This document shows positions 5,481 to 24,711 of a DNA stretch of 64,000 nucleotides, piece by piece. The position numbers and the translations under genes were made by a program. The DNA is from Deltaproteobacteria bacterium (GTDB lineage Bacteria; Desulfobacterota; DSM-4660; Desulfatiglandales; HGW-15), in the NCBI GenBank assembly GCA_020060215.1, contig JAGVAP010000143.1, positions 3,116 to 67,115 on the forward strand, given 5' to 3'. Under the pieces are notes generated by a model that worked only from the letters and a program-made list of their open reading frames with translations, was not told the origin of the DNA and did no database searches. Positions within the stretch are counted from its first letter, which is position 1; every line of letters begins with the position of its first letter.

Positions 5481-5595
5481 TTGGAATGATGGAAGGGTGG
5501 AATGATGAGTTTCGAAGCCATCTCTTAACGCCCTCATCACCAGGCTTTTGATTGTTCTTCCACAATATTCCATTATTCCAACACTCCAATATTCC
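5481..5595 (+). repeat. Armed octamer repeat element (GGAAT family)
   Basis: The left arm at 5481-5507 is built from TTGGAATGATGGAAGGG-type units. The right arm at 5557-5595 is built from complementary ATTCCATTATTCCAACACTCC-type units. About 50 bases of loop separate them. It fills most of the 264-base gap between the two NosL-like genes. Confidence 0.7.
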
Positions 5596-6661: not shown

Positions 6662-6770
6662 TTCCCATCATTCCATCATTCCAATATTCCATTATTCCAA
6701 GGCCTATCCTGTCTATCCTGCCTGCCATGCCGAAGCCTGGGCGGAGGCAGGTTATCCTGTCTAAAAACTC
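6662..6770 (+). repeat. Repeat tract: solo ATTCC arm plus ATCCTGTC hairpin arms
   Basis: 6662-6699 consists of CCATCATTCCATCATTCCAA-type octamers with no clear partner arm nearby. 6704-6770 has ATCCTGTCTATCCTGCCTGCC on the left and GGCGGAGGCAGGTTATCCTG on the right. The ACAGGATT tract at 6511-6530, inside the preceding gene, is complementary to both. No promoter is evident in the 182-base gap. Confidence 0.6.
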
Positions 6771-7925: not shown

Positions 7926-8137
7926 CATGGAATGTTGGAATATTGGAATGATGGAATATTGGAACAGGCGAATGACGGGATCCATCTACCTCAATTTGAG
8001 AAGGCTGTTCCACCATTTGTATCGGCCGTCCTTCCCTCTCCTGTTTCTGCCGACTTTCGTTCCACCATTTCATTTTGCCGTTCCTCGTGTCGTATGATTC
8101 CACATTATTCCAACATTCCAACATTCCATTCTTCCGG
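7926..8137 (+). repeat. Armed octamer repeat element without a gene in its loop
   Basis: The left arm at 7926-7964 contains GGAATGTTGGAATATTGGAA units and the right arm at 8096-8137 contains CATTATTCCAACATTCCAAC units. About 130 bases of loop hold no gene I can recognise. The element fills the gap between the permease and its ATPase and ends 9 bases before the ATPase start codon. Confidence 0.75.
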
Positions 8138-8146
8138 TTCCTGGCC

Positions 8147-8827
8147 ATGATTGAGCTGAAGGGAATAAGCAAGACATACAACACCGGGAAGCCGACCGAA
8201 TATACGGCGCTCAAGGGAATCGACCTCAGCCTCGGCACTAGGACCGCCACCGTTTTCGTCGGACCGAGCGGGTCGGGCAAGACCTCCCTGCTGAGCATCA
8301 TCGGCTGCATGTGCAGGCCCACCTCAGGACGTATCTGGCTGGACGGCAGGGAGGTCACGAGCCTGCCCGAGAGGTTTGCGGCCGAGACGAGAAGGCGCAC
8401 CTTCGGTTTTGTATTCCAGAACTATCACCTGATCAAGGGATTGAGCGTTCTGGAAAACACGATGGTTCCTGCTTACCCGCGCGGAAGGACGCGCCGACTC
8501 GTAAAAGAAAGAGCCATGGCGCTGCTTGGGAAGATGAATCTTGCATCCAGGGCGGGGCAGAAGGTGGAACATCTCTCCGGAGGCGAGCAGCAGAGGACCG
8601 CGGTTGCCAGAGCACTGATCAATGATCCGGATGTGATCATCGCCGACGAGCCCACCGCGCACCTGGACTCCGAGCTGTCGAGGAGGTTGCTGGAAATGAT
8701 CTCCGGCCTCAAGAAGGAAGGCAAGACCATCCTCATGGCGAGTCATGATCCGCTGGTATACGAATCCTCCATCGTCGACAGAGTGATCACCATGCGCGAC
8801 GGCAGGATCGTTCACACTCCGGAATAA
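8147..8827 (+). CDS. ABC transporter ATP-binding protein (LolD/MacB type)
   Basis: 226 residues from ATG 8147; upstream in-frame codons belong to the repeat element. The Walker A is GPSGSGKTS, the Q-loop VFQNYHL, the signature LSGGEQQR, the Walker B VIIADEPTAHLD and the H-loop ASHDP. It is the partner of the FtsX-type permease at 6777. No strong Shine-Dalgarno is visible in front of the ATG because the repeat element occupies that position, so translation may be weak or depend on the upstream gene. The stop overlaps the left arm of the next repeat element. Confidence 0.92.
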   Translation: MIELKGISKTYNTGKPTEYTALKGIDLSLGTRTATVFVGPSGSGKTSLLSIIGCMCRPTSGRIWLDGREVTSLPERFAAETRRRTFGFVFQNYHLIKGLSVLENTMVPAYPRGRTRRLVKERAMALLGKMNLASRAGQKVEHLSGGEQQRTAVARALINDPDVIIADEPTAHLDSELSRRLLEMISGLKKEGKTILMASHDPLVYESSIVDRVITMRDGRIVHTPE

Positions 8828-9379
8828 TGGAATAATGGAATGGTGGAATGATGTGCTATACAGGGGTGTTCGAAGCAGTCCTCAGGCAGGCAGAAAGGTG
8901 TCTTTCCATCCTCTTTCTTTCTGTTGTCTCTGAAGTGACACTATTAGTTTTATCAATTCGTTTTCGACTTTGTAGTGAATCCTATCCAGTTGCTCATTTT
9001 CTTCATCAGTGATTTGACCAGCTTCCTTAAAACTTACATAACAAGAGTGAAATTCTCCGCATGAGCCCAGGGCAATGTTGAGATGGTTCAGGTACTCTTT
9101 CAGACTGCGCCGGCAGTAACCTTCTGCGATATTTCGCGATATGCTGTGTGCTGCGTCGATGGCATTAGAAGCCACTTTCTTTAGTTCAAATGGAAAAGGC
9201 ACAAGTATTCTGCTGGCCAATACATAAAGGGAGACCGAATCTTGCCAGACCCTCAGCTTCTTAAATCCTCTATTGACGTTTCTTAGCTCCATGATTGACT
9301 TATATAACGAAACGAGTTGCGCTTCAAGTTGGGTGGATTCTTCCCCATTATTCCAATATTCCATCATTCCATCATTCCT
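8821..9379. mobile_element. Intervening-sequence-like armed element carrying a four-helix-bundle gene
   Basis: The left arm at 8821-8853 reads GGAATAATGGAATAATGGAA and on. The right arm at 9343-9379 reads CCCCATTATTCCAATATTCC and on. The arms are complementary octamer arrays. Between them lies one minus-strand gene (8882-9292) encoding a four-helix-bundle protein of the 23S rRNA intervening-sequence family. The element interrupts an otherwise co-directional gene run. Its layout, an open reading frame in the loop of a long stem, matches rRNA intervening sequences as known in other bacteria, but this one is intergenic. Confidence 0.6.
8882..9292 (-). CDS. Four-helix-bundle protein (23S rRNA intervening-sequence / S23 family)
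   Basis: 136 residues from ATG 9292; further upstream codons read through the repeat arm and are excluded. Motifs are KKLRVWQDSVSLYV at the N-terminus, VASNAIDAAHSISRNIAEGY, SLKEYLNHLNIALGSCGEF and DRIHYKVENELIKLIVSLQR, which is the usual order of the four helices. The family includes proteins encoded by intervening sequences inside 23S rRNA genes and the accessory protein of diversity-generating retroelements. No reverse transcriptase or rRNA is nearby. It lies opposite to its neighbours and has lower GC than they do, which suggests transfer. Confidence 0.88.
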   Translation of the reverse strand: MELRNVNRGFKKLRVWQDSVSLYVLASRILVPFPFELKKVASNAIDAAHSISRNIAEGYCRRSLKEYLNHLNIALGSCGEFHSCYVSFKEAGQITDEENEQLDRIHYKVENELIKLIVSLQRQQKERGWKDTFLPA

Positions 9380-12189: not shown

Positions 12190-12272
12190 TTGGAAAAATG
12201 GAATAATGGAAGAATGAAAGGTCTTCAAAGCGCTATTTGCATTTTCCATCATTCCATTATTCCACCCTTCCA
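12190..12272 (+). repeat. Armed octamer repeat element (short loop)
   Basis: The left arm at 12190-12219 (TTGGAAAAATGGAATAATGG) and the right arm at 12242-12272 (TTTTCCATCATTCCATTATT) are complementary, around a 22-base loop. It fills most of the gap between the adaptor and pump genes. Confidence 0.75.
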
Positions 12273-24585: not shown

Positions 24586-24711
24586 GGGGTACTGGAATGG
24601 TGGATTATTGGGGGTAATGGTGAAAAGGGAAAACCAGTAGTCCATCACAACCATAAGGTTCGCTCCTCCACATCATTCCAATATTCCATCATTCCATCAT
24701 TCCAATCTTTC
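24586..24711 (+). repeat. Armed octamer repeat element (GGAAT family) between gspF and gspG
   Basis: The left arm at 24586-24622 (ACTGGAATGGTGGATTATTG) is complementary to the right arm at 24667-24711 (ATCATTCCAATATTCCATCA). It fills the gspF-gspG gap. Confidence 0.7.

Follow-up and report, generated by a model that had tools for sequence, protein, structure and literature searches.

A four-helix-bundle gene between inverted octamer arrays

The window, that is, the whole stretch of 64,000 nucleotides analysed here, carries on its minus strand a gene (8882-9292) for a protein of 136 residues whose sole Pfam match is PF05635 (63 bits, cut-off 33.8) and whose second profile match is TIGR02436, 'four helix bundle protein'. 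As the first-pass annotation had stated, the gene is bracketed by inverted octamer arrays; the two arms are 33 nt long each, 85% complementary to one another, and contain four GGAAT units per arm at a spacing of exactly 8 nt. The element lies outside rRNA genes, with an ABC-transporter gene on one side and the next reading frame on the other. The ABC-transporter gene ends at 8827, its stop codon (8825-8827) being supplied by the first octamer of the left arm, and the four-helix reading frame stays open back to an ATG at 9367, within the right arm. Eight arrays of at least two GGAAT units, six of them with four units, are present in the window, compared with 1.6 expected from a first-order Markov simulation. 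The element, its arms and the other arrays are as follows.

5483-5595, no strand: gene-less copy; 55-nt loop between two inward arms; fold z -4.5
6670-6698, minus strand: lone array of four octamers; partner arm not recognised
7929-8127, no strand: gene-less copy; a long loop separates arms 7929-7957 and 8097-8127
8821-8853, plus strand: left arm; four GGAATNNT octamers, with the stop codon of the ABC-transporter gene inside
8882-9292, minus strand: PF05635 / TIGR02436 gene
9346-9378, minus strand: right arm; four inverse octamers, 5' of the gene on the gene strand
12192-12271, no strand: gene-less copy; two inward arms with a short loop; fold z -4.6
24594-24703, no strand: decayed copy; right arm 24675-24703 strong, left arm 24594-24611 weak

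Gene-less arms had previously been noted at four sites. Two of these (5483-5595 and 12192-12271) are clear and a third (7929-8127) is a long-loop pair, but at the fourth, given as 24586-24711, only the right arm is strong; the lone array at 6670-6698 was absent from that list. Genes near the gene-less, decayed and lone arrays encode NosL, FtsX, ABC-transporter, HlyD/CusB, AcrB and type II secretion domains. Frequent variants of the octamer (GGA[AGT]TNAT) include a stop and a start codon that overlap (TAATG, TGATG), and an upstream gene can end within an array, as it does at 8825-8827; such codons may allow harmless landing in operons.

The predicted structure of the window protein (mean pLDDT 93) matches 2gsc best, followed by 2rld and, more weakly, by Avd of diversity-generating retroelements. 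The structure 2gsc is a ring of five (PMC4990558). For Avd, the query-normalised TM values are about 0.70 to 4dwl and 0.73 to 8ub7, at a sequence identity of about 10%. We know of no catalytic site in the PF05635 family.

Arms of tandem units around PF05635 genes in other genomes

Relatives of the window protein were collected in a scan of species genomes, from which the best 80 of 155 candidates, corresponding to 79 loci, were taken. Their hosts belong to the Desulfobacterota, Bacteroidota, Verrucomicrobiota, Lentisphaerota, Nitrospinota and others, and the flanks of these best 80 of 155 show the same arm type as the window, with some loci lacking it. A second set was obtained by searching 148 genomes of one phylum for PF05635, which is matched in 85 of them; from the matches listed it comprises 30 loci and 80 further regions, and it excludes all three close relatives of the window protein in those genomes. 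Inverted arrays were found at these loci too, built from very different units such as GGGGTCA, TTAGCTG, ATCGTAA, AGTGAAT, GGGTTCAA and AGTCAGG.

Cognate arms were scored by aligning the 300 nt before each gene to the reverse complement of the 300 nt after it, with a score of at least 14 taken as a pass; ten loci with short flanks or runs of N were left out. An earlier version of the test that started from the ends of the reading frames was weaker (about 58/101 loci at a score of at least 14) and was replaced because frames can run through arms. Among the matches listed, 85/107 one-phylum loci passed (25/28 in one part and 60/79 in the other), as did 50/74 window-like loci from the best 80 of 155 candidates and 6/16 divergent PF05635 members, leaving 22, 24 and 10 loci, respectively, below the threshold. 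The divergent set initially held 30 loci, of which 17 entered the test and, after L182 had been dropped, 16 were scored; the other 13 are contig-end pieces, overlapping pieces or weak matches, including L189, at which arms are visible by eye. The excess at four-helix genes for which the first-pass annotation had proposed a test is pronounced, with arms at 75/102 PF05635 loci compared with 15/263 other genes in those loci. No random interval passed (0/221), and mispaired flanks did so in 28/1000 cases, or in 112/510 in a set where many loci have one unit in common. Among 141 arm pairs, the best period was 8 nt (52 pairs), 7 nt (49), 9 nt (five) or 5 nt (one), and 34 pairs had no clear period. 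Inverted arrays of 7-9-nt units around PF05635 genes are a real and general arrangement.

Several further observations were made at individual loci. The proteins of L256, L265 and L274 are 90-99% identical and have arms of nearly palindromic 9-mers. By eye, elements of different species adjoin the same neighbour gene within each of three groups (L034, L045, L046, L047 and L052; L067, L068 and L078; L016-L019), which reflects either old insertions that were kept or a preferred site. At L175, L176, L186 and L187, weak PF05635 matches lie within proteins of 250-300 residues, and tandem GTGGACNNN-type 9-mers surround L175, L176 and L187; these proteins perhaps form a related but distinct family with its own arms. 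Genome G043 has 14 PF05635 matches, most of which are short or interrupted by stops, a picture that would fit spread of the family followed by decay in this genome. At L190, the region downstream of the four-helix gene shows expansion of part of the element into tandem repeats of roughly 94-nt period.

The arm unit follows the protein lineage

Arm similarity was analysed for the 85 one-phylum loci with arms, drawn from the matches listed. For the 106 between-genome pairs with at least 60% protein identity, the mean arm similarity is 0.475 and 30% of the pairs reach 0.6. Pairs of less alike proteins have means of 0.17-0.20, and pairs of PF05635 genes within one genome that are less than 60% identical have means of 0.13-0.18, with none of 41 reaching 0.6. 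The arm unit tracks the protein lineage, not the host.

Within the window subfamily, the same relation was followed at a single base. A tree was built from 75 of the 80 proteins (those of at least 120 residues, from the best 80 of 155 candidates), and it mixes host phyla. Unit position 4 (GGA[A/G/T]T) requires 5 changes on this tree, compared with 25 with shuffled labels, and none of 200 shuffles was as low. Both arms have the same base at this position in 60/66 loci typed on both sides; in 14/80 loci it could be typed on one side only. Genes of two types occur together in a single bin, Bacteroidetes 4572_114: L025, which is A-type in gene and arms and has a stop in its frame, and L040, which is G-type in both.

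Residue 6 of the protein covaries with this base. It is Lys or Arg in 24/24 G-type, 2/44 A-type and 0/5 T-type proteins, two A-type rows having a gap at this residue. The tree implies at least two origins of G at unit position 4. In a column table read by eye, residue 6 is the column in which the second G group agrees completely with the first; for residue 12 the agreement is partial. In new loci from sets of 296 and 288 genomes plus L215, with unit types read by eye, 11/12 agree with the rule (p 0.018); L393, L414 and L417 were untypable, and L387 and L407-L410 repeat known loci. The exceptions to the residue-6 rule are L014, L026 and L392, the last of these being the new locus that disagrees.

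Whole elements present and absent in close relatives

A search of 72,556 plasmid records with the window protein gave three matches, all in Nostoc; no relative was found in the viral contigs searched. The four-helix genes of these plasmids sit between inverted heptamers (GGGAACA or GGGGAAA-like), the element stretches match 29 and 11 plasmid records, and 13 regions were compared. L401 has 419 nt, consisting of the gene and AGTCAGG-type arms, where L385 has 2 nt, and the flanks of the two are 92.4% identical over 979 nt and 99.7% identical over 292 nt. The same site is also filled in L400 and L402 and empty in L397, L398, L399 and L404. L385 in turn carries a 503-nt element of another type that is missing from L401 and L397. 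At a third site, an element is present in L383 and L384, gaps of 52 and 51 nt are found in L395 and L406, and other inserts occupy L394 and L396; the insert of L396, which has inverted heptamers without a four-helix gene, is missing from L406 and is accompanied by an 8-nt near-duplication. Gene-less pairs behave similarly: L400 and L398 carry one of the AGTCAGG type that L397 and L399 lack, and a pair of this type splits the four-helix gene itself in L402. One element protein, WP_114080759.1, is a single record found on plasmids of two strains. Junction overlaps of 3-8 nt with mismatches occur at some Nostoc sites and none at others, and target-site duplications are not uniform.

These comparisons show whole elements present or absent at otherwise matching sites in close relatives, and the empty sites called for by the first-pass annotation exist alongside filled ones on related Nostoc plasmids. 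Because several different elements lie at neighbouring sites with tight empty states, the differences may well be gains rather than losses. At one site in a Pedobacter-type genus, that of the genome containing L024, the four-helix gene occurs intact, shortened, as a remnant, or gone with its arms left behind; traces rather than a clean ancestral empty site were found there. From reading the sequence, we take the genes flanking this site to be a nucleotidyl-transferase-like gene and, presumably, gmd.

Gene-less copies and arrays

A pattern of three GGANT units was found in 39/41 genomes with window-like genes, compared with 1/41 for the same pattern written backwards. Within the one phylum it occurs in 20/148 genomes, a few of which may be due to chance, since the backwards pattern also matches (4/148) and some genomes have a single match. 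All 20 array-positive genomes fall among the 85 of 148 that are PF05635-positive (p 9e-6). Chance repeats as an explanation of the arrays are ruled out by the Markov expectation in the window, the control genes and intervals, and the backwards-pattern control. A close relative of the window protein (E below 1e-30) is encoded by 3/148 genomes, all three of which have arrays, and was not found in 17 of the 20 array-positive genomes, including the array-richest, G150. A one-to-one link between GGA[AGT]T arrays and a close window-protein relative within the phylum is rejected on account of these 17 genomes, in which the arrays may have outlived the gene, may be those of another subfamily, or may belong to a gene missing from the assembly.

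Arrays of at least three units lying at most 60 nt apart in 80 regions are oriented inward in 51 cases, outward in two and in the same direction in four. Together with the window, the 80 regions gave 65 inward pairs, of which a length filter kept 52. These gene-less pairs, which bear out the gene-less derivatives suggested earlier, are 50-128 nt long and have mostly 3-5 units per arm. At unit positions 1, 2, 3, 5 and 8 the main base is found in 85-99% of units, a range partly imposed by the scanner, and positions 6 and 7 vary without a match across arms. By eye, many copies of both kinds, with and without the gene, have a TGGGTTT-like inner end in common, as internal deletion would produce. 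The neighbouring genes of the 52 pairs are in tandem in 27 cases, convergent in 13 and divergent in 11, and one pair has no frames beside it. At L011 and in other Desulfobacterota, arrays often start a few nt from an upstream stop codon, with 23/32 at 30 nt or less or overlapping it. Insertion into pre-existing hairpins, as in rRNA helices, was considered as a rule and rejected, the outer flanks being no more complementary than mispaired ones (2/52 pairs at a score of at least 9, 0.8 expected).

A proposed minimal mobile element and its alternatives

We consider it likely that PF05635 genes are the coding part of widespread minimal mobile elements, whose protein binds its own arms and directs insertion. 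Based on the sequence comparisons above, we propose a hypothetical scheme in which (i) the element consists of one PF05635 gene between two inverted arms of a few tandem 7-9-nt units; (ii) the protein probably assembles into a pentameric ring like its relative 2gsc; (iii) the ring would bind the units of its own arms sequence-specifically through its N-terminal segment, with residue 6 reading unit position 4; (iv) by holding both element ends together it would direct insertion; (v) cutting and joining would be left to host enzymes or to an unrecognised activity of the ring, since the element encodes no recognised nuclease, recombinase or reverse transcriptase; and (vi) the matching protein would act in trans to mobilise gene-less copies. 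Inserted into an rRNA gene, such an element would be what is known as an intervening sequence. Arm binding is inferred here from the covariation between protein and unit. Against the scheme stand the loci that fall short of the arm threshold, the 17 array-positive genomes without a close window-protein relative, the three exceptions at residue 6, the uneven target-site duplications and the mere traces at the Pedobacter-type site. We favour recognition of the arms as DNA rather than RNA, without decisive evidence.

In a different reading, the arms form a stem in the transcript, and the protein binds or shields this stem or the purine-rich 5' arm and controls processing, the element spreading by rare reverse transcription or recombination. 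We give this possibility some, though limited, weight. Folding bears on it in both directions: 5/5 gene-less copies fold better than all of their shuffles, the fixed unit positions pairing with each other, whereas the whole window stretch that includes the gene shows no advantage over its shuffles (z -1.08). Pairing as a selected feature of the arms fails at positions 6 and 7, which are variable and, in each of five registers, lack complementarity from one arm to the other. The conserved arm feature is the unit sequence rather than full pairing. The idea of the octamer arms as a stem is retained in part: the arms are inverted and matched, but their unit varies by protein lineage and is conserved as a sequence. 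A role in RNA would suit the base composition of the arm 5' of the gene, where G exceeds C in 126/141 loci and C exceeds G in 12, the cleavage of the Coxiella rRNA element by RNase III in its stem (PMC4990558), and the resemblance of the fold to Avd, which is part of an RNA-protein complex of retroelements. It is less easily reconciled with gene-less copies that occur in tandem, convergent and divergent gaps alike, or with the 7/20 array-rich genomes in which a whole-genome search of the incomplete assemblies gave no PF00078 match; on the latter result a dedicated reverse transcriptase as the mover appears less likely.

Passive elements moved by the transposase of another element, in the manner of MITEs, with the four-helix gene as cargo, would account for the commonness of gene-less copies and for the lack of a recognised transposase among the encoded products. 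Such elements would leave unexplained why the arm unit tracks the lineage of the cargo protein and why residue 6 is linked to the unit, and we think this reading unlikely.

A host regulon, in which the arrays are regulatory sites, the PF05635 protein regulates itself and presence or absence is ordinary gain and loss, appears very unlikely to us. The protein would be a sequence-specific binder here too, and gene-less arrays do lie near gene ends in operons. Regulatory sites would, however, hardly come as units of gene plus arms that are whole in some plasmids and missing in relatives, lie as a gene-less pair within a four-helix gene, or exist as several unrelated units within one genome.

Simple slippage producing functionless arrays, although some arrays are long and regular (e.g. 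L039 and L060) and L190 has its tandem array of roughly 94-nt period, is hardly tenable, being already contradicted by the covariation: slippage gives neither inverted matching arms at one gene family, nor a unit that follows the protein, nor fixed positions that are kept while neighbouring ones vary.

Returning to the mobile element as we propose it, the main interpretation of the first-pass annotation, an element resembling intervening sequences that spreads between genes, is supported, and the phenomenon is much larger than the window. A wider hypothesis, on which we are evenly divided, is that PF05635 proteins are the missing partners of many intergenic 7-9-mer arrays, including cyanobacterial STRRs, the TAACTGA and GGGAATC repeats and rRNA intervening sequences. 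These would then constitute one pan-bacterial class of mobile elements that lack a nuclease gene, each ring protein coevolving with a tandem unit of its own through a protein-to-base code that can be read. If true, this would provide a partner and a role for a large family of undefined function, explain heptamer repeats that have been described for decades without a known function as well as the occurrence of PF05635-family genes within cas loci and in rRNA genes, and supply many natural pairs of a small protein and its own short recognition unit. A further question that it raises is how an element encoding only a four-helix protein moves.

Relation to known systems

Short intergenic heptamers have been described repeatedly. 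Cyanobacterial STRRs are intergenic heptamers, often in hairpins, whose function was called unknown (PMC2670836), and the Nostoc four-helix genes found here likewise have heptamer arms. The GGGAATC repeats of Xanthomonas usually have four units, and their convergent pairs number 70 and 75 (PMC4692102). In the available parts of the descriptions of cyanobacterial, Beggiatoaceae and Xanthomonas heptamers (PMC2670836, PMC4679880, PMC4692102), a PF05635 partner is not named, and the text of the TAACTGA repeat paper contains no mention of 'four helix' or 'S23'. A general link between PF05635 and flanking short tandem repeats was not found in the open-access literature, outside which lie most subscription journals and all preprints. 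Earlier reports place genes of the family in cas loci, one example lying between cmr3 and cmr2 (PMC3936711), and in insertions within the 16S and 23S rRNA genes of CPR bacteria (PMC11270868), and the family is named in a figure legend of a 2023 CRISPR survey (PMC10910872).

Like REPIN/RAYT systems, in which an autonomous gene with short inverted repeats is accompanied by many small intergenic gene-less copies, the present elements have small, dispersed, gene-less copies of their flanking repeats. They differ in encoding a four-helix bundle instead of a tyrosine (HUH) transposase, no match to which was found in the window gene, PF05635 being its sole Pfam match, and in having arms of tandem 7-9-mers. 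The resemblance of PF05635 to Avd has been remarked on before (PMC10053308). Avd has a similar fold, but it is a weaker match than 2gsc and 2rld, has a sequence identity of about 10%, and belongs to retroelements, whereas the elements seen here have no reverse transcriptase as a part.

A close parallel is provided by 23S rRNA intervening sequences, which, like the window element, have a gene of the same family between terminal inverted repeats. The tie to them drawn by the first-pass annotation gains support from the rRNA element of Coxiella, where tandem heptamers precede the S23 frame and the terminal stem measures 28 bp, the number of heptamers varying between strains (PMC4990558). Unlike these intervening sequences, the elements described here lie between protein genes, their unit depends on the lineage and many of their copies are gene-less; the 23S rRNA intervening sequences appear to be members inserted into rRNA. 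Because we neither know nor found a described system in which a matching arm of tandem units goes with a protein that lacks a recognised nuclease, we rate these elements as a new kind; their rRNA-located relatives being known, they could also be counted as a variety of those.
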